Positions 33,460-46,663 of a stretch of DNA of 64,000 bases are shown one piece after another; positions within the stretch are counted from its first letter, which is position 1; each line of letters begins with the position of its first letter. Made by a program: the position numbers and the translations under genes. The notes under the pieces were generated by a model. The model was given only the letters and a program-made list of their open reading frames with translations. It did no database searches and was not told where the DNA came from. Location of the stretch: NCBI GenBank assembly GCA_012964825.1, contig DTTI01000042.1, positions 1 to 64,000 on the forward strand, read 5' to 3'. The DNA is from Candidatus Neomarinimicrobiota bacterium. Its GTDB lineage: Bacteria; Fidelibacterota; Marinisomatia; Marinisomatales; S15-B10.

Positions 33460-34302
33460 ATGGAAGCGGAACAGAAAAATTCAACAGTGCGAGTCATCGT
33501 ACACTCGTTTTTTGTTGTACCATTTCTAATTGCTGCTTTTGGAGTTCTCATATTTTTCATGTGGCGGCTTCTTACATATGAGCCGAAGGGTGCTGAAGAA
33601 TACCTGGCTGATGTGAAGATCGGCAGTGCTACCAAAAGATGGCAATCTGCTTTTGAGTTATCAAGATTGTTGGCTAATCCCGACATGCCGCAAATCTCAG
33701 ATAGATTTGTATCTGAAATGCACTCAGCTTATGAATATGCATTGCGAGATCCGGATACACGTGTCCGGCAGTATCTCATTCGAGCGATGGGTCAGACAGC
33801 CAACCCTTCTTTTGTAGTAACAATTCAAAATGCATTGAATGAATACAATGAAGATGTTGTGGCTGATGCAATATATTCCCTCAGTTATTACAACGAAATT
33901 GAAAATGTCAAACTTATTGTTCAACAAACTGATCACCCATCCGCCTTGGTGAGGAATCGGGCGGCTATTGCACTTGGTGCGATGAGTGCGGATGATTCCT
34001 TCACGGGTCTCCGGTCTCTCCTATCTGATCCTGAGCCCAACGTACGGTGGAATGCCGCTGTGTCCCTGGCAAAACATGGTGATCCATCTGGCCGCACTGT
34101 ATTGTTAAACCTTCTTGACAGGTCTTACCTGGCAAGATTTGAAGGGGTTGATCGATACGAAAGTGAGCAAGCTATGATGGTTGCAATTCAGGCTGCCGCT
34201 ATGCTGGATGATTCCGAAATTGATGAAGTTTTGAGAGTTCTCAGCGATACTGATGAAAACTTGAAGCTTCGAGATTTGGCAAAAAAGGCACTGAAATTGT
34301 AG
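33460..34302 (+). CDS. Membrane-anchored HEAT-repeat protein
   Basis: 280 residues. One N-terminal membrane helix (VVPFLIAAFGVLIFFMW, residues about 19-38) is followed by helical HEAT-type repeats, for example DPDTRVRQYLIRAMGQ, HPSALVRNRAAIALGAM and DPEPNVRWNAAVSLAKHG, spaced at about 30-40 residues. The repeats presumably lie outside the membrane as a protein-binding scaffold. It begins the respiratory locus, ten bases before the Rieske gene, so it is likely an accessory or assembly subunit of the bc-type complex. That role is inferred from position. Confidence 0.85.
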   Translation: MEAEQKNSTVRVIVHSFFVVPFLIAAFGVLIFFMWRLLTYEPKGAEEYLADVKIGSATKRWQSAFELSRLLANPDMPQISDRFVSEMHSAYEYALRDPDTRVRQYLIRAMGQTANPSFVVTIQNALNEYNEDVVADAIYSLSYYNEIENVKLIVQQTDHPSALVRNRAAIALGAMSADDSFTGLRSLLSDPEPNVRWNAAVSLAKHGDPSGRTVLLNLLDRSYLARFEGVDRYESEQAMMVAIQAAAMLDDSEIDEVLRVLSDTDENLKLRDLAKKALKL

Positions 34303-34311
34303 GAGAGACTT

Positions 34312-34875
34312 GTGACGGAAGAAGTACTAAAGGAAAAAATTAAAGAAAAACAACCCGTAGCATCTGTTGGCGAAGGATCTATTAAGGAAAAAGTACAGCG
34401 GCGTTCATTTATTTCTTGGCTTGCTATAGCTTGGGTAGCTTTTGCTGCTGCAACAGGCGGATTCTTTACTATGGTGTTGAGAATTTTCTTTCCCAATGTA
34501 CTTTTTGAACCTCCACAGACATTCAAAATAGGCTTTCCTGAGGATTATGAAATTGGCTTAGTAGATATACGATGGCAGGAAAAATTCGCAACATGGATTA
34601 TTAGGAGTACAGAATATATTTATGCTCTCTCCACCACCTGCACTCATCTTGGCTGTACACCCAATTGGTTGGAAAATGAAAACAAATTCAAATGCCCATG
34701 CCATGGTAGCGGCTTCCGAAAGTCGGGAATAAATTTTGAAGGGCCTGCTCCCCGGCCTCTCGAGCGTTATAGGATTGTTCTAGCGGATGATGGACAGATC
34801 CTTATTGATAAAAATAGAAAATTTCAGTATGAAAAAGGACAATGGTCGGACTCTGAGTCATTCTTGGTTGTATAA
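34312..34875 (+). CDS. Rieske iron-sulfur protein
   Basis: 187 residues with one N-terminal helix (ISWLAIAWVAFAAATGGFF) and a Rieske domain. The 2Fe-2S ligands are Cys110, His112, Cys128 and His131, with Cys115 and Cys130 able to form the disulfide (CTHLGC and CPCHGSG). It receives an electron from quinol in the bc/b6f-type complex and passes it to cytochrome c. GTG start preceded by GGAGAGACTT. It is followed by the two parts of cytochrome b, an arrangement like menaquinol-bc and b6f complexes. Confidence 0.95.
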   Translation: MTEEVLKEKIKEKQPVASVGEGSIKEKVQRRSFISWLAIAWVAFAAATGGFFTMVLRIFFPNVLFEPPQTFKIGFPEDYEIGLVDIRWQEKFATWIIRSTEYIYALSTTCTHLGCTPNWLENENKFKCPCHGSGFRKSGINFEGPAPRPLERYRIVLADDGQILIDKNRKFQYEKGQWSDSESFLVV

Positions 34876-34913
34876 AATAGTTAACATGAAAAGGAGTGAC
34901 TAAAAACTGTCTC

Positions 34914-35699
34914 ATGAGCGATAAAAAGAACATATTTGAACGGTTCGGAGATTCCCAGGTATGGAAATCTATTATCCGATCTGGTGTCCCCAGAACTCGC
35001 AGGCAAAGGATGATGTCTGTCCTTAATAGTGTTTTTTTGCATCTTCATCCGGTCAGATTACCCAGACATGCGGTTAAACTGAAATTCACATGGTGCATGG
35101 GAGGTCTTACATTTTTCTTGTTTCTGGTTTTGACCATATCTGGCATACTTCTTATGTTTTATTATCGGCCTACTGTAGAGTATGCATATACGGATATGAT
35201 CGATCTTGGGGAGCAGGTGCCTCTCGGCATCATGCGGGAGATTCACCGTTGGGGGGCTCATGCTATGGTTATTACTGTATGGCTGCACATGTTCCGTGTT
35301 TTTATGACGGGATCCTATAAACCTCCCAGAGAATTCAATTGGTCTATTGGGGTAATTCTTCTTGTTCTTACACTCCTTTTAAGTTTTACTGGTTATCTTT
35401 TGCCTTGGGATCAGTTAGCCATGTGGGCAATTACTGTTGGTTCCAATATGGCAAGAGCTGCTCCTTTCCTTGGACATGAAGGTCCAGGTGCATCATTATT
35501 GTCCATTGGTGACATCAATTTTGTAAACATGGGCGCTGATGCAAAGTTTGCTTTGCTCGGCGGACGGTTCGTGGGAGAAGCAGCTTTATTGAGGTTTTAT
35601 GTTCTGCACTGTATAGGTCTTCCTTTCATAGTGATGATTCTTATGGCCGTTCACTTCTGGAGAGTTAGAAAGGATGGCGGAATCTCGGGGCCCACTTAG
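34914..35699 (+). CDS. Cytochrome b N-terminal (b6-type) subunit
   Basis: 261 residues with four core helices. The two b-heme ligand pairs are His residues 14 apart in [18 protein letters not shown] and 15 apart in [20 protein letters not shown], the b6 spacing rather than the 13/14 of mitochondrial cytochrome b. It ends [10 protein letters not shown] as in cytochrome b6. It forms the quinol-oxidising membrane core together with the next gene. ATG 34914 is preferred to a GTG at 34896 that sits on a GGAG sequence. Confidence 0.94.
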
Positions 35700-35722: not shown

Positions 35723-36838
35723 ATGGATAGTTTTAAGGATTTAATCAATTTTATTACTCGACCTACGCTGATGCTCACATTTGCTATGTTCAGCTTTCCA
35801 TTCTTCTTTCCTGTAAATGATTGGTTTGACAAATGGAACAAGCGGTTGAAATTTAATTTGCTCTGGTCAAATGGGGGGCTGGTCGTAGTAATGACGGGCC
35901 TGGTTTTGTTTTTCTTGGTGGGCCTGGAAGACAGTGATTTTCGTCTTATTGTTTTCAAACCAGACAATGTTCCCATTGTAGGCCTTATTTTTCTGGTTTA
36001 TTTCTTTCTTTGGGTGAGTATGAAACAGGCTGTGGATAATGATGCTCAACTTCAGTCTGGAAATAAACCAAATGAATACAATGATCCTGAAGACAAAGTT
36101 TTGGTTTGGCCTGACCTTGTCTATGTTGAATTCATTTGCCTCATCTTATGTACCTGTCTATTGCTGGTTTGGTCCATTGGATTAGATGCTCCCCTTGAAG
36201 AACCGGCCAATCCGGCTTCTACACCGAATCCTTCCAAAGCACCTTGGTACTTCCTTGGGCTTCAGGAGATGTTAGTCTATTTTGATCCCTGGCTTGCTGG
36301 TGTTGTTTACCCAACCATAATTGTTGTTGGCTTAATGGCAATTCCTTATCTGGATAGGAATCCGGAAGGTTCTGGTTTTTTCCAGTTCAAGAATAGAAGA
36401 TTCGCCATTTCGATATATATATTTGGCTGGATCATTCTCTGGGTAATGTTGATTGTTATCGGAACTTTCTTAAGAGGCCCAAATTGGAATTTCTTCGGGC
36501 CATTTGAATATTGGGATTTGCATAAACTTGAGCCTTTGACTAATATCAATCTTTCAGAGATCATTTATATCAAATACCTTAATACTGGATTACCTCAAAA
36601 TATTCTACTTAGAGAAATTTTTGGTATTCTACTGGTTGTTGGATATTTACTGATTCTCCCTCCTTTATTTGCAAAAACTATCTTCAAGCGAATCTATGAG
36701 AAACTGGGAAGTTTTAGCTTTGGTGTATTTGTTTTTCTTGTTTTGAGCATGTTGTCTCTACCTATAAAAATGTACTTGCGATGGATTTTTAATCTTAAGT
36801 ACATAATAGCTATTCCTGAGTTTTTCTTCAATATCTGA
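35723..36838 (+). CDS. Cytochrome b C-terminal (subunit IV-like) protein, extended
   Basis: 371 residues. A subunit IV-like core at about 150-215 contains PANPASTPNPSKAPWYFLG and QEMLVYFDPWLAG, corresponding to the quinol-site region where cytochrome b usually has PEWY; here it reads APWY. Two hydrophobic segments precede this core and about three follow, so it is longer than b6f subunit IV (about 160 residues). It completes the cytochrome b core with the preceding gene. The motif difference is noted as a possible functional feature, not an error, since flanking residues are conserved. Confidence 0.88.
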   Translation: MDSFKDLINFITRPTLMLTFAMFSFPFFFPVNDWFDKWNKRLKFNLLWSNGGLVVVMTGLVLFFLVGLEDSDFRLIVFKPDNVPIVGLIFLVYFFLWVSMKQAVDNDAQLQSGNKPNEYNDPEDKVLVWPDLVYVEFICLILCTCLLLVWSIGLDAPLEEPANPASTPNPSKAPWYFLGLQEMLVYFDPWLAGVVYPTIIVVGLMAIPYLDRNPEGSGFFQFKNRRFAISIYIFGWIILWVMLIVIGTFLRGPNWNFFGPFEYWDLHKLEPLTNINLSEIIYIKYLNTGLPQNILLREIFGILLVVGYLLILPPLFAKTIFKRIYEKLGSFSFGVFVFLVLSMLSLPIKMYLRWIFNLKYIIAIPEFFFNI

Positions 36839-36847
36839 TATACCGGA

Positions 36848-39832
36848 ATGGATAAGCAAGAGAGACATTATAACATTTTCAGTCTGAACCGGCTTTTTGC
36901 CATTTCCAGTATATTTTTCTTTGTCCTCATTGTTTGGACCTTTATAGATGATTATGATAGAAACTGGAAATATTATCAGCGTGAATTCAGAAAACTGGAA
37001 TCTGATCAAACACAAAACTTACTTTCAGCGGAAAGAGAGCGAATTCAAGAGTTAGAAGAATATCAAAATGCGGAAGCCGAATTGGAGCTTGCTAAGAGTA
37101 GCCTTGATTCAAGGAAAGAAGACTTGTCTGTATTGGGGAAACAAGAAAGAAAATTGCAGGCGGTCAATTATAAAGCAGAGCAAGAATTATCGTTTATAAA
37201 GTCAGACTATGATGCCACACGTTACCGTTATGAAGATGCTGTAACCAGAGGCAATGGAAAAGTAGACAATTTGAAACGCCAGCTAGATGAACTTGAGGCT
37301 GATGTTTCCCAAAAGAATTTGATAGTTCAAGAGGCTTCAGCATCCCTTTCTTCTAAGTCTGCTGAGATTGATGAATTGAGGAAACAGGCTGATGATGCCA
37401 TGGATGAGATCGGGAAGTTCTCACGGCAGGCCGATCTTTTTGAAAGAAAGCTGCGAAATATTGATCCGAGTGCCATGACGATTTCAAATCGTGTTGCCGC
37501 AGCTGTGCGCGACCTGCCCGTAATCGATTTTTTAAATCCGTACATAAAGATAAAACAGATAATTCTTCCTGAGCTCAGGGATGAATTGAATTTTATGAGA
37601 ATGCCAAAAGTTGACAGATGTACCACATGTCACTTGGGCATTGACCAAGCAGGTTTTGAAGATGTACCTCAGCCATACACAACTCATCCCAATCTGGACC
37701 TATTCCTAACAAGTTCTTCTCCGCATCCTATTGAAGAATACGGGTGTACCAGTTGCCATGCAGGACGGGGAAGAGGAACTGATTTTACCACAGCATCTCA
37801 TTCTCCCAGCTCTCACGAGCAAGAAGAAGAATGGGTTGAAAAATATGACTGGCATGAAATGCATCACTGGGACACTCCAATGTATCCGGCCCAATACACT
37901 GAAGCAGGATGCTTAAAGTGCCATGTAGACCAACCTTTCATTCGTGGAGCTGATGATTTGAATATGGGCTTAGCACTGTTTGAAAAGACGTCTTGCAACA
38001 GCTGTCATTATATTGAAAGGTACGATGAGACCTATGCACAAAGAGTGGGTCCCAATCTGACTTATATTTCTTCCAAAACAACAAAAGATTGGACTTACCG
38101 CTGGGTCCAAAATCCGCGTAGTTTCAGGCACAATACCTGGATGCCACACTTTTTTGACATAAAAGATGAAAACGATGATGAGGAAAAATTAAGATCAAGC
38201 CAGGAAGTACATGCTATAGTAAGCTATTTATTTAGTCGCAGTGAAAATTTCTCGCTTACATCTTTGCCAAGAATGGGTAATACGGACCGTGGTGAATACT
38301 TATTTAATAATCTCGGATGTGAAGGTTGTCATAAAATTCAGGATGAACCTGATAATAATCCTTATACCCTGGCTTCACTTCGGCAGGAACATGGGCCGAA
38401 TCTTATTGGCCTTGGTTCAAAGACCACACAAAAATGGCTATATAGTTGGTTAAAAAATCCTAAAGACTATCATCCTGAGAGCCGGATGCCAAACCTTAGA
38501 CTTTCGGATGTTGAAGCAACAGATTTGGCAAGTTATTTATTTAGTCTTTCGGAAGATGAGTTTATGTCTTCATCAATCCCTTCTTTTGATGAGAAGATGC
38601 AATCAGATATAGCTTTCCAGTTTTTGTCTAAAATGAATTCTGACAAAGTTGCTCGGTCTGAATTGGCTTCCATGGACATGGTTGAAAAGCTTGAATACAA
38701 TGGTTCGAAGCTTATTCAGCACTATGGATGTACTGGATGTCATCTTATTCCTGGTTTTGAAGATGCTAAACGTATTGGGGTAGCTCTTGATGGCGAAGGT
38801 AGCAAACCGTTAAATAAGCTGGATTTTGGTTATTTGGACATTCCGCATTCTAAGATCAACTGGTTTACTCAAAAAGTAAAGGATCCCAAAAGCTTCGATA
38901 AAAATAAGGTGGTAGGACCTTATAACGGATTAAGGATGCCAGACTATGGATTAAGTGATGAAGAAATCGAAAGAATCGTAACTGTTATTTTGGCATTGAA
39001 TAAAGATGATACCAAGAAAAAACCTAATTCAGCCCACAAAACATTTGTTGAAGCTGGGCAGTGGGTGGTTAGGAACAACAATTGTCAAGGATGTCATATC
39101 ATTGAAGAACGGGGTGGAGATATTCTATCCAATTTTGTTGCCATGGAATACGGACCGCCGAACTTAAATACGGAAGGCGAAAAAGTTCAGCCTGGTTGGC
39201 TTCTTTCCTTTTTTGATAACCCTACAACAATAAGGCCGAATCTTCTGGTTCGCATGCCTTCATTCGAGCTTGGGGATGAAAAATGGAACAACCTAATCAA
39301 GTATTTTCAATATTGGGATGGGCAGACCACACCATATGAAGGTGATTATACACCTCAAAAAAACAATGTTGGCTACCGCGCTGGTATAAAGCTCCACGAA
39401 ATGGGTGCTTGTAACAATTGCCATTATTATGGCACTACCCAACCTCTTCAGACTCCTCAAACATGGGCTCCAAATATGGCGCTAACCAAAGAACGTTTAA
39501 GACCTGACTGGGTTATGGAATGGTTACGTGATCCTCAAAAAATTATGCCAGGCACAAAAATGCCGAAGCCATATATCCCGGCGCCTGAGGAATTAACTTC
39601 ATCCGATGCTTCAGAAATATTTGGGACAGAGATAATGAAACTTTCTGGCGATGATGAGGCCATGCTTAGAGGACTTACAGATTATGTTTATGCTATTCCT
39701 GGAAAGGTTGATATTTCGTCTGAAATAGCAACTTTCTTCAGCAAAAATGGTTACGATTTCCTTGAGGACTTAGAGGAAATTGATGATTGGGATGATGAGG
39801 AGTGGGAAGACGAAGAAGAGTGGCAAAATTAA
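36848..39832 (+). CDS. Membrane-anchored octaheme c-type cytochrome with long coiled coil
   Basis: 994 residues. One N-terminal membrane helix (about 18-36) precedes a coiled-coil stretch (about residues 45-205, Glu/Lys/Leu-rich with heptad-like spacing). Eight CXXCH heme motifs then occur at Cys258, 300, 355, 383, 491, 628, 746 and 855. The spacing suggests several mono- or diheme cytochrome c modules. The C-terminus is very acidic (EEIDDWDDEEWEDEEEWQ). Lying between the bc core and cytochrome oxidase, it probably carries electrons between them in the periplasm. I do not recognise a named family for the whole protein. Confidence 0.9.
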   Translation: MDKQERHYNIFSLNRLFAISSIFFFVLIVWTFIDDYDRNWKYYQREFRKLESDQTQNLLSAERERIQELEEYQNAEAELELAKSSLDSRKEDLSVLGKQERKLQAVNYKAEQELSFIKSDYDATRYRYEDAVTRGNGKVDNLKRQLDELEADVSQKNLIVQEASASLSSKSAEIDELRKQADDAMDEIGKFSRQADLFERKLRNIDPSAMTISNRVAAAVRDLPVIDFLNPYIKIKQIILPELRDELNFMRMPKVDRCTTCHLGIDQAGFEDVPQPYTTHPNLDLFLTSSSPHPIEEYGCTSCHAGRGRGTDFTTASHSPSSHEQEEEWVEKYDWHEMHHWDTPMYPAQYTEAGCLKCHVDQPFIRGADDLNMGLALFEKTSCNSCHYIERYDETYAQRVGPNLTYISSKTTKDWTYRWVQNPRSFRHNTWMPHFFDIKDENDDEEKLRSSQEVHAIVSYLFSRSENFSLTSLPRMGNTDRGEYLFNNLGCEGCHKIQDEPDNNPYTLASLRQEHGPNLIGLGSKTTQKWLYSWLKNPKDYHPESRMPNLRLSDVEATDLASYLFSLSEDEFMSSSIPSFDEKMQSDIAFQFLSKMNSDKVARSELASMDMVEKLEYNGSKLIQHYGCTGCHLIPGFEDAKRIGVALDGEGSKPLNKLDFGYLDIPHSKINWFTQKVKDPKSFDKNKVVGPYNGLRMPDYGLSDEEIERIVTVILALNKDDTKKKPNSAHKTFVEAGQWVVRNNNCQGCHIIEERGGDILSNFVAMEYGPPNLNTEGEKVQPGWLLSFFDNPTTIRPNLLVRMPSFELGDEKWNNLIKYFQYWDGQTTPYEGDYTPQKNNVGYRAGIKLHEMGACNNCHYYGTTQPLQTPQTWAPNMALTKERLRPDWVMEWLRDPQKIMPGTKMPKPYIPAPEELTSSDASEIFGTEIMKLSGDDEAMLRGLTDYVYAIPGKVDISSEIATFFSKNGYDFLEDLEEIDDWDDEEWEDEEEWQN

Positions 39833-39871: not shown

Positions 39872-40597
39872 ATGAGTTATCGGTCAAGAGCAACATTTAT
39901 TTTGACAACAGGGCTTATATTTTCCAGCATTCTCACTGCTGGTGGCATAAAGGGTACAGTAAAGTATGAAGGTAAAGTACCAAGGATGAAGCCAATCAAG
40001 ATGGCCGCTGATCCAATTTGTGACGGTAAACACGCTGAAGGCCCAGCTCGTTTAGAATGGCTTCTGGCTGGCAGTGAAGGAGAGTTAAAGAACGTTTTTG
40101 TCTACGTGAAAGAAGGGCTTGGCGACAAAAAATTCGCCGCTCCTGAAAAGGTAGCAACCATCGATCAGAACGGTTGTGTTTACAAACCACACATTCTCGG
40201 TGTTCAAGTTGGACAGAAAATAGAGATATTGAATAGTGACGGTACCCTCCACAATGTTCATGCGATGCCCAAGAAAAAAAATAATGTTGCTTTTAATGAG
40301 GCTATGCCAGGCGCTCGTAAGAAAGTCACGAAGAAATTTGATGAAGCCGAAATCATGGTAAGAGTGAAGTGTGATGTTCATCCATGGATGGGAGCCTTTA
40401 TTGGTGTCCTCGATCATCCTTTCTTTTCAGTAACTGATGAAAATGGCAATTTTGAAATAGAAAATTTGCCTCCCGGCACGTATACTGTCGAAGCTTGGCA
40501 TGAGCGATTACCAGCGAAGACCGTTACGGTTACAGTTCAGGCTGATGGAGATGCTACAGCTGACTTTGTTCTTAAGCGTCCACCAAAAAAAGAATAA
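39872..40597 (+). CDS. Cupredoxin-like periplasmic protein with C-terminal CarboxypepD_reg-like domain
   Basis: 241 residues with a signal peptide (FILTTGLIFSSILTAG). NDGxLHNVHA (DGTLHNVHAMPK) and later VKCDVHPWMGAF supply a His-Cys-His-Met set like type 1 copper sites (plastocyanin-like). The final 70 residues (FSVTDENGNFEIENLPPGTY) form a carboxypeptidase regulatory-like beta domain. It could shuttle electrons or deliver copper between the cytochrome and the oxidase. AAGGAGGATAC precedes the start. Both roles are inference; the ligand set has not been confirmed by structure. Confidence 0.8.
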   Translation: MSYRSRATFILTTGLIFSSILTAGGIKGTVKYEGKVPRMKPIKMAADPICDGKHAEGPARLEWLLAGSEGELKNVFVYVKEGLGDKKFAAPEKVATIDQNGCVYKPHILGVQVGQKIEILNSDGTLHNVHAMPKKKNNVAFNEAMPGARKKVTKKFDEAEIMVRVKCDVHPWMGAFIGVLDHPFFSVTDENGNFEIENLPPGTYTVEAWHERLPAKTVTVTVQADGDATADFVLKRPPKKE

Positions 40598-40650: not shown

Positions 40651-42381
40651 GTGGCAGAGCATCATCACCACGAGCCTTTCTGGCGGAAATATATATTTTC
40701 TGTTGATCATAAAGTAATCGGTCTACAGTACGCTATCACGGCTATGTTTTTCCTTTTGTTTGGATTCTGCTTGATGTTGATAATGAGATGGAATCTGGCT
40801 TACCCCAGCGAAGTTGTTCCTATTGTTGGCAAACTTCTTTCTGAAGAGGGAATGCTGACCCCCGATGGGTATAACTCATTTGGTGCTATGCACGGAACGA
40901 TCATGGTGTTTCTTGGTGTGGTGCCTTTGGCTGTGGGTGGATTCGGTAACTATGTTCTACCTCTTCAGATTGGTGCTCCTGACATGGCTTTTCCGAAAAT
41001 TAATATGGCCAGCTATTGGTCATTTTTTGTGGGTGGTGTACTCATGCTGGCCAGTTTTTTCATGCCTCAGGGCACTGCGAGCTCCGGCTGGACTATGTAT
41101 GCACCCCTTTCGATCATTGCTGAAACTGGAGAAACCATCTGGCTCTTTGGCATGATATTTCTGATCACATCATCCCTTTTAGGTTCGGTTAATTTTATTG
41201 CAACTGTCATCCAGTTGCGTACAAAAGGTCTTACTTGGATGAGACTGCCCTTTTTTGTCTGGACTCAGTTTGTTACAGCATTTTTACTCCTGCTTGCATT
41301 CCCTCCTTTGGAGGTAGCGGCAGTTTTTCAATTGATGGATAGATTGGCTGGTACAAGTTTTTTCCTTCCATCGGGGCTCTACGTGGGGACTGAAGTGCTG
41401 AATGTAGCAGGAGGTGGAAGCCCTCTTTTATGGCAACATCTTTTCTGGTTTCTTGCTCATCCCGAGGTTTATGTTCTGGTTCTCCCAGCCATGGGGATAG
41501 TGGCAGAGGTGCTCGCAAATAACACCAGGAAGCCTCTTTGGGGTTATCGTTCCATGGTCTATTCGTTGATTTTCCTCGGCTTTATGTCATTTGTTGTCTG
41601 GGCCCATCACATGTTTCTCACAGGAATGGGAACTACCATGGCTGCATTCTTTCAGACGACTACCATGATTATCTCCATCCCCTCTATCATTATTCTGTCG
41701 GCATTTTTCATTTCACTCTGGGGCGGTTCCATCAGGTTTAACACACCCATGTTGTTTGCCCTGGGGTTTCTGCCCATGTTTGGGATAGGCGGACTGACGG
41801 GTCTCCCTTTGGGATTAGCTTCAGCCGATATTCATCTTCATGATACATATTATGTTATTGGCCATTTCCATTATGTTGTAGCACCGGGAACCATCTTTGC
41901 TCTCTTTGCCGGAATTTATTACTGGTTCCCAAAGGTAACTGGAAAACGGATGAACGAAGGACTCGGCAAGATCCACTTCTATGGTTCTTTCATCTGTATG
42001 AATGGAGTTTTCAGTCCCATGTTCATCCAAGGTCTGGCTGGTGTCTCAAGACGATTGTATGATGGTGGAACCACTTATCTACATGCTCAACCTGTTCTCC
42101 AATGGAATGAATTCATGACCATGGCAGCATTGGGGCTAGGGTTATTCCAGTTTTTCTTTATTGCGAATCTGTTTATCAGTCTTGCTAAGGGTGAGAAAGT
42201 CTCCAGCAATGCATGGGACGCTACCACATTGGAATGGGCTGCTGCGCCATCTCCACCGCTGCCTCATGTCAACTTTGAGAAAGTACCGGATGTCTACCGT
42301 GGACCTTATGAGTACAACACGGATGGAGCTAACGGTCAAAATCGTGACTTTACTCCACAACATGAAGCTGTAAAGGGTTAG
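40651..42381 (+). CDS. ctaD: Cytochrome c oxidase subunit I
   Basis: 576 residues of the heme-copper oxidase catalytic subunit. It reduces O2 to water while pumping protons. Landmarks: [11 protein letters not shown] (low-spin heme His), [15 protein letters not shown] (CuB His and proton-path Glu, Tyr), [11 protein letters not shown] (two CuB His) and [14 protein letters not shown] (heme a3 and a ligands). The HPEVY motif indicates the A-type with a Glu in the D-channel. GTG start, GGAG upstream. The N-terminus has a run of His (AEHHHHEPF). The order I-III-IV-small-small-II here differs from the usual II-I-III. Confidence 0.97.
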
Positions 42382-42385
42382 ACTG

Positions 42386-42979
42386 ATGCAGATTCCGTAC
42401 ACTGTCAAGGCTCGACCAGATACAGGACTTTACAACGCCAAGATCGGTATATGGCTTTTCCTGGCATCAGAAGTGATGCTATTTGGTGCATTGTTCTCAT
42501 CATACATTCTTTTGCGGACTGGAGCCACTACTTGGTTTGTGGGATCGGAGGAACTCAGTGTTCCTATAGGTACTTTCAATACAATGGTACTTATTGTTTC
42601 AAGTGTAACTGTGGTGATGGCGTGGGCTTCCCTTAGAATGGACGACTTCAAGAAATATAGACTTTACATGGGTCTCACCATACTTCTTGGACTGACTTTT
42701 CTGGTTGTAAAGATTATGTTTGAGTATATGCCAAAAATTGAACATCATCATATACCAAGTACCCATAATTTTTATGCTACCTACTTTGTGTTGACGGGTC
42801 TTCATGCTCTCCACGTGGTTGGAGGCCTCATTGTTAACGCTTATTTCTGGGGCCCAGGTGCCAAAATGTGGGAGACAGCCCCGGAGCAGTTTACTAACCG
42901 CATTGAGATTGCTGGTCTTTACTGGCATTTTGTTGACATTGTATGGATTTTTCTTTTTCCTACAATCTATCTCTTATAA
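42386..42979 (+). CDS. ctaE: Cytochrome c oxidase subunit III
   Basis: 197 residues, five to six helices. Landmarks: [41 protein letters not shown] and [20 protein letters not shown], all typical of subunit III, which stabilises the proton-entry side of subunit I. It follows subunit I by four bases and is followed by subunit IV after eight, so it is in one transcript. The protein is at the short end of the family, lacking the N-terminal helices found in the mitochondrial form. Confidence 0.94.
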
Positions 42980-42987
42980 GGTGAGGT

Positions 42988-43320
42988 ATGAACGCGACAC
43001 AAGATATCAAGAACGAGATTAATAGTTACATAAAAGTGTTCGGTGCCTTGGCCGTTTTGACGGTAGTAACTGTAGCTGTGGCTTCGCTTAAGTTCAGTAT
43101 TGGTTTGGCTGTACTTGTTGCCATGGTGATCGCCACGGTAAAAGGCTCGCTTGTAGCAAGTTTTTTTATGCATTTGGCTCACGAAAAAAAATTGATTTAT
43201 CTATTGCTCTTTATCACGCTTGTTTTTTTGATGTCGCTATTGTTCATAACATTTGGAACAATAGGCGATCAAGTTGGAGTGAAAATTGTCCCTGAAAGCA
43301 TTTCATCTGGCGTTCATTAG
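42988..43320 (+). CDS. ctaF: Cytochrome c oxidase subunit IV (CtaF/CyoD-like)
   Basis: 110 residues with three predicted helices. IKVFGALAVLTVVTVAVASL and VLVAMVIATVKGSLVASFFMHLAHEKKLIY match the prokaryotic COX IV family, whose single small subunit aids assembly of the oxidase. It overlaps the start of a further small membrane protein by 35 bases. Confidence 0.88.
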   Translation: MNATQDIKNEINSYIKVFGALAVLTVVTVAVASLKFSIGLAVLVAMVIATVKGSLVASFFMHLAHEKKLIYLLLFITLVFLMSLLFITFGTIGDQVGVKIVPESISSGVH

Positions 43321-43480: not shown

Positions 43481-43749
43481 AAAAAATCTCTAGACTTGCA
43501 TTTGTCTTTGCTTCAATTTTTTGTCTGATTCCTGGAATTGCATCAGCATGTTCGGTCTGTTTTGGTGCACCTGCAGACCACCCCATGACTGAAAGTCTTA
43601 ATTTGGCAATCATTGCTCTCATAGGTGTTACGGGAACCGTTCTCGGTGGAATTTCCACCTTTTTTATCTTCTTGGCACGTCGTGGGAAAAAGTTTAGCGA
43701 GATCATGGAAATATATGATTCACATAATGGAAATGGGAGAGCACATTAA
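43477..43749 (+). CDS. Small membrane protein with CSVCFG motif
   Basis: 90 residues: a signal peptide (AFVFASIFCLIPGIASA), then CSVCFGAPADHPMTES with a Cys-x-x-Cys pair at the new N-terminus, then one membrane helix (LAIIALIGVTGTVLGGISTFFIFL) and a charged tail. Similar small proteins occur beside cytochrome oxidase genes in other phyla, but no function is established. The CxxC could bind a metal or thiol partner, for instance in CuA assembly; this is inference. It overlaps genes on both sides. Confidence 0.75.
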   Translation: MKKISRLAFVFASIFCLIPGIASACSVCFGAPADHPMTESLNLAIIALIGVTGTVLGGISTFFIFLARRGKKFSEIMEIYDSHNGNGRAH

Positions 43750-44693
43750 TGCTTGATTTGCTCCGCAATCTTGGGTTGGCTGAAGGTTATTCAGCGCAGT
43801 CGCCAGCCGTGGATAGTGTCATTTCATGGAGTCACATTCTGATGTTAATTTTATTTGTCGGATGGGGATCTTTTTTCATCTATACATTAATCCGATTTCG
43901 ACAGAAAAAGAATCCTGAAGCTGATCCAGTAGGTGTTACAAATCATTATTCCACGTATGCAGAAGTCGGTGTAGCAGTGTTTGAAATTGTCCTTCTCATT
44001 ATTTTTTCTTTTCCGGTTTGGGCAAGCCGTGTAGAGGAAGTGCCTGACAGAGCTGAGGCAGAAGTCATTAGGGTTGTGGGACAGCAGTTCAAATGGAATA
44101 TTCACTACCCAGGTGATGATGGTGTTTTTGGCCGAACGTCGGCTCATCTTATTGATGATCAGGCACTGAACTTTATCGGTTTTGATAAAAAAGATGAGGC
44201 AGGTCAGGATGACATTATCCCAACGCAGGGGCATCTTCACTTGCCTGTGAATAAAGATATCCTGATAGAGATTTCTACAAGAGATGTTATCCACAGCTTT
44301 TCTATCCCTGTCATGCGTGTGAAGCAGGATGCCATTCCAGGGATTCGAATCCCAACATGGTTTACCCCTATAAGAACAGGTTCATGGGAGATTGCCTGTG
44401 CCCAACTTTGCGGAAACAGCCATTATGAAATGAAAGGGTATGTTCACGTCCACACCCAGCAGGGATATGATGCATATATGAAAACATTGGCCGTCGTAAG
44501 GGATGTGGATGACTACGACTATACTTTTGAAGCGGAAAGCACACTAAGTAAAGCCATCAATGCTCTAAAGGAAGGTAACGCAGGGCAGGCTGAAGATCTG
44601 GCATTACAAGCATTGTCGCAGGCTGAAGAAGCCAAAGTAGAGAAGGAGGCAGCTGGGGACGACGAAGATGATGATTGGGGAGAAGAGTGGTAA
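43749..44693 (+). CDS. ctaC: Cytochrome c oxidase subunit II
   Basis: 314 residues with two helices at residues about 25-50 and 70-90 and a periplasmic CuA domain. STRDVIHSFSIPVMRVKQDA and CAQLCGNSHYEMKG carry the CuA ligands (C-x3-C, with His and Met). It takes electrons from cytochrome c and passes them to subunit I. No heme c domain is fused, unlike caa3 enzymes; instead a 60-residue charged, Ala/Glu-rich tail ends in EDDDWGEEW. The start overlaps the previous stop (TAATG). Confidence 0.95.
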   Translation: MLDLLRNLGLAEGYSAQSPAVDSVISWSHILMLILFVGWGSFFIYTLIRFRQKKNPEADPVGVTNHYSTYAEVGVAVFEIVLLIIFSFPVWASRVEEVPDRAEAEVIRVVGQQFKWNIHYPGDDGVFGRTSAHLIDDQALNFIGFDKKDEAGQDDIIPTQGHLHLPVNKDILIEISTRDVIHSFSIPVMRVKQDAIPGIRIPTWFTPIRTGSWEIACAQLCGNSHYEMKGYVHVHTQQGYDAYMKTLAVVRDVDDYDYTFEAESTLSKAINALKEGNAGQAEDLALQALSQAEEAKVEKEAAGDDEDDDWGEEW

Positions 44694-44709: not shown

Positions 44710-44729
44710 CCACCTCAATTTCAAGGTGG
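44710..44729 (+). promoter_or_regulatory. Hairpin covering the CtaA-CtaB start codon
   Basis: CCACCT and AGGTGG form a 6-bp stem around an 8-base loop. The 3' arm contains the GTG start of the next gene and is followed by CTTCTACTTTTTC. It may act as a weak terminator or limit translation of the heme A synthesis gene relative to the structural genes. Evidence is sequence complementarity only. Confidence 0.4.
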
Positions 44730-46663
44730 CTTCTACTTTTTCTTACATTAAAAACTCACAGACTTGGTTAAGGCGGTACTCTAAGTTCACCGCCTTTTCC
44801 ACTTTAGGGCTCATCTTTGCAGGTGGTTTGGTTACAAGTACAGGTTCGGGACTCGCCGTACCAGATTGGCCCAATACTTATGGTGAATTCATTTTCACCT
44901 TTCCTTATTCAAAATGGGTGGGTGGAATATTCTACGAACACCTCCATAGACTACTCGCGTCTTTTGTCGGTTTTTTAACGCTTGTTCTTTCAATTTGGCT
45001 TTGGAGAACTGAGCCGCGGCCGTGGATGAAAAAGCTCGGTTTGTTTGCTCTTGGGGCGGTCATTGCACAGGGAATTCTGGGTGGACTTACAGTGTTATTT
45101 CTACTCCCCACGGCCATATCCATGACACACGGTATCCTAGCACAGACATTTTTCTGTATCACCATCTTTATCGCCTATTCTCTTTCAAAAGAGTGGAACT
45201 CCTCTCGTTCATCCTTGGCCAGAGTTGAAAATGAATCGTTTGTTTGGTGGAGCATAACTCTGACAGGGTTGATTTATGCTCAGCTGATTTTAGGTGCTCT
45301 CATGCGCCATACAGGTTCGGGGCTGGCAGTGCTTGATTTTCCTTTTGCAAACGGGAAAGTAATCCCAATACTTAGCGACCTACTGCTCTTAAACATAAAC
45401 TATGCTCGTTTTGATCTGGGGCTGGAGCCCGTCACAATGGGTCAAATTATAGTTCATATGCTTCATCGGTTAGGGGCGGTTTTGGTATTGGTTACAGCTG
45501 CGGGACTGACAGTTCAGACAATAAGACATCAGCGCGGGGAAGATAAAATCTTTTTGCCTGTACTGTTCTTCGATCTTCTACTGCTGACTCAAATAGCGCT
45601 GGCTGCTTTTGTTATTTGGAGCATCAAGGCGCCCATCATTACCACCTTCCACGTCTGGACAGGTGCTCTGCTTCTTGGAACATCATTTTTCCTTACCCTC
45701 CGTTCTTTGCGGGTACTCATCCCCGAAGGAAGATTGCAATTGATTTTTCAACGTCAACCTTTAACAGTAGAAAAATCCAACGGGTTAAAGGGTTATCTCT
45801 TAAGTCTTTGGGAAATGATGAAACCGAGAATTGTTTCATTGGTTTTGGTGTCAACTGTAATTGGGTATTACCTCGGTGCCGTGGAATCGGGAAAGTCGAT
45901 CTTGACTGAGCCGTGGATGTTAATTCATACTCTAATAGGGACAGCTTTTGTGGCGGGAGGCGCTGGTGTTCTCAATCATTATCTTGAGCGAGACCTGGAC
46001 AGGCAGATGAAAAGGACAATGAAACGGCCCATACCTTCCGGCAGAGTTAAGCCCAATGCAGCAAGGAGGTTCGGGATTTACATATCTGTTATGGGAATTA
46101 TCTATCTGTTTTCAGTCGTCAATATCCCTACGGCAGCTGTGGCCTTTCTCACACTTTTTCTCTATTTAATCATTTATACGCCACTGAAAATGAAGACCAC
46201 TTGGAACACGTTAATAGGTGCCATTCCCGGCGCATTGCCAACTCTGGGTGGTTGGCTTGCTGCCAGTGGGAGTCTTGAAACTGGCGGATGGATTCTTTTC
46301 GGGATTCTTTTCCTTTGGCAGATACCCCATTTTTTTGCCATTGCCTGGTTATACAGACATGACTACGGGCGGGTCGGTTTTAAAATGCTTCCTTCGGTAG
46401 ATCCTTCAATGAGAAAAACGTCCGCTTTTTCTGTTTTATTCTGCGTACTATTGATTCTTTGTACAACATTATTGCATTTGAATGGTAGTGCCGGCAAGGT
46501 TTTTATGTGGGGATCGCTATTGCTTGGCTTCACCTTTCTTGCGCTAGCCATAGATGCTTCCAGAGGGTGGACAGAGGTGAGAGCACGCCGCCTTCTGGCG
46601 GGATCCATCATCTATCTCCCGCTTTTACTCGTAATCATGGTAATTGACCAAAGTTTATTGTAA
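44726..46663 (+). CDS. Fused heme A synthase-heme O synthase (CtaA-CtaB)
   Basis: 645 residues. The N-terminal part (about 1-345) is CtaA: GLVTSTGSGLAVPDWPNT, FYEHLHRLLASFVGF and later HMLHRLGAVLVL with paired heme-ligating His. The C-terminal part (about 365-645) is CtaB: MMKPRIVSLVLVST, NHYLERDLDRQMKRTMKRP (the N-x3-D-x3-D prenyltransferase motif) and PHFFAIAWLYRHDYGRVGF. Together they convert heme B to heme O (farnesylation) and then to heme A for the oxidase. Both halves look complete. The start is GTG, in a hairpin. Confidence 0.93.
   Translation: MASTFSYIKNSQTWLRRYSKFTAFSTLGLIFAGGLVTSTGSGLAVPDWPNTYGEFIFTFPYSKWVGGIFYEHLHRLLASFVGFLTLVLSIWLWRTEPRPWMKKLGLFALGAVIAQGILGGLTVLFLLPTAISMTHGILAQTFFCITIFIAYSLSKEWNSSRSSLARVENESFVWWSITLTGLIYAQLILGALMRHTGSGLAVLDFPFANGKVIPILSDLLLLNINYARFDLGLEPVTMGQIIVHMLHRLGAVLVLVTAAGLTVQTIRHQRGEDKIFLPVLFFDLLLLTQIALAAFVIWSIKAPIITTFHVWTGALLLGTSFFLTLRSLRVLIPEGRLQLIFQRQPLTVEKSNGLKGYLLSLWEMMKPRIVSLVLVSTVIGYYLGAVESGKSILTEPWMLIHTLIGTAFVAGGAGVLNHYLERDLDRQMKRTMKRPIPSGRVKPNAARRFGIYISVMGIIYLFSVVNIPTAAVAFLTLFLYLIIYTPLKMKTTWNTLIGAIPGALPTLGGWLAASGSLETGGWILFGILFLWQIPHFFAIAWLYRHDYGRVGFKMLPSVDPSMRKTSAFSVLFCVLLILCTTLLHLNGSAGKVFMWGSLLLGFTFLALAIDASRGWTEVRARRLLAGSIIYLPLLLVIMVIDQSLL

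Follow-up and report, generated by a model that had tools for sequence, protein, structure and literature searches.

From its sequence and gene context we identify the octaheme cytochrome c (OCC) encoded in the window, by which we mean the whole 64,000-nucleotide stretch analysed here, as the c-type subunit of a respiratory bc complex, and the complex itself is best explained as a b6f-like menaquinol or quinol oxidase made up of a Rieske protein, a b6-type cytochrome b, an enlarged subunit IV and the octaheme c. Acidic, tryptophan-containing C-termini are shared by OCC and by subunit II of the cytochrome oxidase (CoxB), and a cupredoxin encoded between the two ends in a Lys-rich C-terminus. 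These termini are new as far as we searched the literature, where nothing under cupredoxin, plastocyanin, Rieske or octaheme described them for Neomarinimicrobiota. The host genome, a member of the Neomarinimicrobiota, is 2.2 Mb in size and 98% complete, and OCC is the last gene of an operon laid out in it as follows:

33460..34302, + strand: HEAT-repeat protein bearing a single hydrophobic segment at the N-terminus, the gene that opens the operon (Pfam HEAT_2, 5e-21)
34312..34875, + strand: Rieske [2Fe-2S] protein (CTHLGC...CPCHGSGF; Pfam Rieske, best PDB match 9rk3)
34896..35699, + strand: b6-type cytochrome b, retaining the Cys to which heme c_i/c_n is bound in b6f (FTWCMGG; PDB cytochrome b6, E 7e-41)
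35723..36838, + strand: enlarged subunit IV-like protein (371 aa) with the quinol-site motif APWY (Pfam Cytochrom_B_C)
36848..39832, + strand: OCC, 994 aa

This gene order, HEAT-Rieske-b6-subunit IV-OCC, was unbroken and ended in OCC in 23 of 23 loci, while the heme c_i Cys was present in 27 of 27 b6 sequences read and APWYFLGLQE in 27 of 27 subunit IV sequences read. At the scale of genomes, OCC and CoxB were encoded together in 47 of 149 and were both missing from 100, and the two genomes that held one without the other (OCC alone in one, CoxB alone in one) are each about two-thirds complete; in the host genome, the operon cytochrome b is the sole PF00033 protein. It is on the constant operon, the co-occurrence with CoxB and the single PF00033 cytochrome b that we base the assignment of OCC to the respiratory bc complex. 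The initial annotation had proposed that OCC takes the place of a cytochrome c1 and acts in respiration, and both proposals were borne out: OCC occupies the c1/f position of the operon at every one of these loci and is accompanied by CoxB in 47 of the 48 OCC genomes, and the opposite prospect, that homologues would prove unrelated to respiration, was examined and did not hold. Its position between cytochrome b and the oxidase genes stands for this genome, where, as in many relatives, the cox genes lie downstream of OCC, but does not extend to every relative, as the oxidase genes are not always adjacent. The HEAT-repeat protein, which is membrane-anchored and came first in the bc operon at all 23 loci, is possibly an extra subunit or an assembly factor.

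Other identities for OCC and its complex were considered and rejected. OCC matched no cytochrome c1 or cytochrome f family and has eight hemes in place of a single one, and it had no Pfam or NCBIfam match to octahemes of the HAO/OTR/ONR type, with five of its eight hemes lying in class-I cytochrome c domains. Nor is there a sign of ACIII as the main complex, because the single NrfD match of the genome sits in a molybdopterin oxidoreductase cluster.

The following parts were recognised within OCC:

36890..36946, + strand: single transmembrane helix, residues 15-33 (hydropathy)
36947..37456, + strand: predicted helical hairpin, residues 34-203, turn at 135-138 (AF2; length and turn conserved in homologues)
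37619..38008, + strand: hemes 1-4, CTTCH 258, CTSCH 300, CLKCH 355 and CNSCH 383 (conservation, 33 sequences)
37994..39706, + strand: hemes 4-8, five putative class-I cytochrome c domains with one invariant MP apiece (PF00034, conservation)
39752..39829, + strand: acidic-tryptophan C-terminal tail (DDWDDEEWEDEEEWQN)

The heme motifs, eight CxxCH at residues 258, 300, 355, 383, 491, 628, 746 and 855, cover a stretch from residue 258 to 859, and the count of eight, given already in the initial annotation, recurred in every full OCC copy read, deep families included. Among the phylum members read, the motifs were spaced by 42, 55, 28, about 107, about 138, 118-132 and 109-129 residues, and this constant count with near-fixed spacing indicates that they are not chance occurrences. 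Across 33 sequences (96% threshold), the Cys and His of all heme motifs were invariant or nearly so, and likewise conserved were His 280, 293 and 318, situated among hemes 1 to 3, and Met 432, 547, 697, 803 and 905, which follow hemes 4 to 8 on the C-terminal side, every one of them within an MP motif; PF00034 matched four stretches of the protein. The three His are likely the distal ligands of hemes 1-3, and from the pattern of conserved residues we infer that OCC has bis-His ligation at its first three hemes and, behind them, five class-I cytochrome domains with His/Met ligation. OCC is encoded in 48 of 149 Neomarinimicrobiota genomes, across which its features are conserved, except that two deep families have no acidic tail. 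A contig search with a single OCC protein returned relatives that were all Candidatus Marinimicrobia/Neomarinimicrobiota, which says nothing on the hairpin form in other phyla, and the same architecture sought in plasmids yielded single cytochrome c domains only.

Hydropathy gave one hydrophobic segment only, near residues 15-33, in keeping with the one N-terminal helix first proposed, and the region behind it had been annotated as a coiled coil of 160 residues. That region is helical and its length is conserved in homologues (169-173 residues, with 138 in L036 as the exception), but AF2 models of four sequences broke it into two helices, 4-134 and 139-203, at pLDDT of about 75-87 over residues 70-190, and the Gly/His-rich turn is kept in homologues. 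The hydrophobic period of the whole helical region peaks near 3.5 in OCC homologues; helix 2 of OCC has a period of 3.50 residues, a value reached by 0 of 1000 shuffles, and helix 1 taken alone was unremarkable (328 of 1000 shuffles), with no distinct period of its own. Given the AF2 helices, the periodicity and the conserved length and turn, a helical hairpin of about 98 + 65 residues suits this region better than a single coiled coil of 160 residues, and the concern that a coil would be absent from models and homologues was not borne out. The hairpin presumably lies on the periplasmic side, because the heme domains of OCC are exported. These heme domains, modelled without hemes in the same four sequences, had pLDDT mostly below 50 and gave no usable fold.

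The initial annotation could name no family for this architecture, a statement that had to be given up, since the octaheme c of b6f-like Rieske/cytochrome b complexes has already been described (PMC12954380, PMC3578206). In PMC3578206, an atypical octaheme cytochrome c is reported beside a b6f-like operon in Nitrospina gracilis, and likewise in Kuenenia and Methylomirabilis, while PMC12954380 presents an AlphaFold3 model of Kuenenia Kustd1480-1485 in which the large multiheme Kustd1485 wraps the complex with long helices and also possesses a TM helix. When compared with all Rieske chains in the PDB, the window Rieske was nearest to 9rk3, Kuenenia Kustd1480 (58 of 116 residues identical, 151.6 bits), and Kuste4569 came second with 84.7 bits. 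On the strength of the published octaheme c, the Kustd1485 model and this nearest Rieske, and judging by operon, Rieske and published descriptions, OCC is the octaheme c subunit of the Nitrospina/Kuenenia/Methylomirabilis kind: it has Rieske, b6 and subunit IV neighbours, eight hemes, a Kuenenia-like Rieske, and a TM helix with long helices. Homology of OCC to Kustd1485 and to the other octaheme subunits, all compared by description only, is probable.

The Kuenenia complex resembles that of the window in its b6f-like cytochrome b, enlarged subunit IV and 50% identical Rieske, in having a large multiheme c that combines long alpha-helices with a TM helix (Kustd1485, compared by description), and in a c-type heme near the negative side, for which the c_i Cys is present in the window b6; it differs in its NAD(P) oxidoreductase subunits, whereas genes for a HEAT protein, a cupredoxin and an aa3 oxidase are found here. 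The operon of Nitrospina gracilis and Methylomirabilis oxyfera likewise brings together a Rieske, a split b6/subunit IV and an octaheme c (PMC3578206). Matches were also found to the families of selenite/tellurite reduction operons (NCBIfam NF040969-71), with the window b6 scoring 266.8 bits for ExtP against a cut-off of 290 and the window subunit IV matching ExtQ below the curated cut-off, and these operons differ from the window in genomic context; ExtS (NF040971) was rejected as an identity for OCC, whose match was weak at 51.2 bits against a cut-off of 100.

Downstream of OCC, the window encodes the cupredoxin and the oxidase:

39872..40597, + strand: secreted cupredoxin; its copper loop is of the amicyanin type (TLHNVH..., CDVHPWM), and a beta domain lies at the C-terminal end
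40574..40594, + strand: basic C-terminal tail of the cupredoxin, KRPPKKE here and RPKKK in most relatives
40651..43320, + strand: cytochrome oxidase subunits I, III and IV (CoxA, CoxC, CoxD; COX1 by Pfam and NCBIfam, the names CoxC and CoxD resting on position and sequence, conserved in relatives)
43749..44693, + strand: CoxB (subunit II); its Cu_A motif reads CAQLCGNSHYEM (Pfam COX2, motif)
44655..44690, + strand: acidic-tryptophan C-terminal tail of CoxB (GDDEDDDWGEEW)

Beyond CoxB, positions 44726-46663 encode a heme A synthase (CtaA/Cox15) fused to a UbiA prenyltransferase (heme O synthase-like), 645 aa in all, with homologues in relatives.

The strongly acidic tail reported at the outset for OCC is there, with 13 D/E among the final 20 residues, and what that report missed is that CoxB carries such a tail as well and that the basic tail of the cupredoxin is its complement. 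In many relatives the Trp-containing acidic repeats that close OCC read DDWGDDDW, and CoxB terminates in the same manner. Among 422 ORFs in 37 sampled stretches, which surround OCC and CoxB clusters and are not a random sample, an acidic-Trp C-terminus was found in 35, namely 23 OCC and 12 CoxB and no others. An exact DNA pattern for DDWGD[DE] matched 23 of 149 genomes, all of them OCC-bearing (the reversed control gave one match), and the matches, where read, fell in OCC, in two CoxB types, in one cytochrome c of family f12 and in a lipoprotein of family f17. In the second CoxB type (L103, L116, L125, L126, L129) the acidic-Trp stretch is internal, with a conserved end such as VPTKWGWPWKEVK behind it. 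The f12 protein (L119 1060-2307, - strand) is a cytochrome c with three hemes and, in its interior, a DDWGDDDDDWGDE stretch; it adjoins a NarG/NxrA-like molybdopterin subunit. A reading of the acidic-Trp tail as a general signal of secreted proteins was rejected, as among 11 GA-GA-TGG-stop sites in the genome only that of CoxB ends a long ORF.

The cupredoxin, the sole PF00127 match in the genome, was encoded in 45 of the 48 genomes with OCC and in 4 of the 101 without it. Its AF2 model (pLDDT 80) had pseudoazurin, amicyanin and plastocyanin as best PDB fold matches, and its predicted His, Cys, His and Met copper ligands lie in an invariant motif, TLHN[VI]H + CDVHPWM. As a predicted type-1 copper protein, it shares the fold of these proteins and, with amicyanin, the C-x2-H-x2-M copper loop, and differs from them in extra N- and C-terminal beta segments and in its Lys-rich tail, the C-terminus being RPKKK or similar in most families.

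Comparing families, we found that the three tails tend to be kept or lost together. All three were present wherever the genes were read in f1, f3, f4, f8, f9, f12 and f15, with the partial exception of G032, whose CoxB as read is of the second type with an internal acidic-Trp stretch. In f18, OCC, CoxB and the cupredoxin are all without tails, and in f17 OCC has no tail, CoxB has a short acidic-Trp tail and the basic cupredoxin tail is variable and often weaker. A small lipoprotein of no known family with a DDWGDDW-type tail was encoded in 4 of 149 genomes, all f17 (L181-L184 in G137, G072, G099 and G107), and these four are the ones whose OCC lacks the tail, which fits a move of the tag from OCC to a separate lipoprotein subunit. 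Because f17 and f18 are deep branches, phylogeny confounds this co-variation, which may amount to one or two evolutionary events rather than many. Overall basicity of the cupredoxin was rejected as a co-varying trait, as the f18 cupredoxins are basic without a tail and charge alone is therefore not specific.

We propose, and consider rather probable, that OCC acts in a b6f-like menaquinol/quinol oxidase from which the cupredoxin, guided by the tails, carries electrons to CoxB of the aa3 oxidase. The TM helix would anchor OCC beside b6/subunit IV, and the hairpin may pack along the periplasmic face and around the Rieske, as modelled for Kustd1485, and so position the hemes. Electrons would pass from quinol through the Rieske to the bis-His hemes 1-3 of OCC, first steps that follow established bc-complex chemistry, and from there along the His/Met hemes 4-8, until the acidic-Trp tail at the far end of OCC would capture the basic cupredoxin through contacts with the copper domain and the Lys-rich tail of the latter. 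The cupredoxin would then deliver the electron to Cu_A in the aa3-type oxidase, an equivalent tail being present on subunit II of that oxidase. Taken by itself, the carrier step between OCC and Cu_A with the tails steering is an evenly balanced proposition. More tentatively still, and with our doubts somewhat the stronger, the alike acidic-Trp tags on complex III, where OCC or in one family a separate lipoprotein bears them, and on CoxB, read by a Lys-tailed blue copper carrier, could constitute a charge-coded, short-range respiratory wiring in Neomarinimicrobiota whose docking tag can move between proteins.

Several observations count against the cupredoxin path. A mono-heme cytochrome c beside a PQQ-type dehydrogenase could be the carrier instead (the sole small mono-heme cytochrome c found in the host genome, L162 1351-1830, + strand, adjoins such a dehydrogenase), tail-less f18 cupredoxins are basic as well, and in one genome (G018) the best-scoring cupredoxin copy is acidic (pI 5.1), a second copy having RPKKK. 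Also, OCC could be wired directly to Cu_A in a supercomplex with no carrier. This last is the main rival, unlikely in our estimate, and would have OCC connected straight into CoxB in a III-IV supercomplex, with the tails attached to one shared scaffold, or each to the complex of the other, and a different task for the cupredoxin. The adjacency of the oxidase genes here and in many relatives would fit it, as would the likeness of the OCC and CoxB tails and the number of hemes, which could bridge a long distance, but tails of like charge would be expected to repel each other, not to pair, the oxidase genes are not always adjacent, and alongside lies the gene of a conserved, co-occurring cupredoxin whose tail is complementary. 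Actinobacterial QcrC, a diheme, membrane-anchored c that stands in place of the mono-heme c1 and is linked to the aa3 oxidase, offers a precedent for direct wiring; OCC resembles it as a membrane-anchored multiheme c replacing mono-heme c1 and differs in having eight hemes against two and a hairpin that QcrC does not have, and its match to NCBIfam bc1_QcrC_actin was weak and at motif level.

A less probable reading takes the acidic-Trp tails as docking sites for factors that assemble the cofactors (heme or Cu_A insertion) of periplasmic metalloproteins or export these proteins, with no part in electron transfer, which would suit their presence on a heme protein, a copper protein and a lipoprotein without obvious redox motif, but the cupredoxin, also a metalloprotein, bears the opposite tail, and another multiheme protein of the host genome (557 aa, five hemes) has no acidic tail. 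Least credible of all, and in our view very improbable, is an anammox-like function in which OCC would act not in aerobic respiration but in a reaction that is bifurcating or linked to NAD(P)H: NAD(P)H formation has been proposed for the complex of Kustd1480, the nearest match of the Rieske, but the window operon has no NAD(P) oxidoreductase subunit and OCC co-occurs almost perfectly with CoxB.

For the Neomarinimicrobiota (SAR406), a marine phylum that is almost wholly uncultured, the OCC complex appears in this genome to be the sole bc-type route from quinol to oxygen. The part most worth following is the pairing of shared acidic-Trp tails with a basic partner, as the shared tails predict specifically how electrons leave the complex and the acidic-Trp tag could, through pattern searches, reveal further electron-transfer partners. 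The OCC complex forms an aerobic branch, present phylum-wide, of a complex type already known; it extends to aerobic marine bacteria a complex so far discussed for anammox bacteria and nitrite oxidisers, and this extension bears on the purpose of so many c-hemes on a bc complex.
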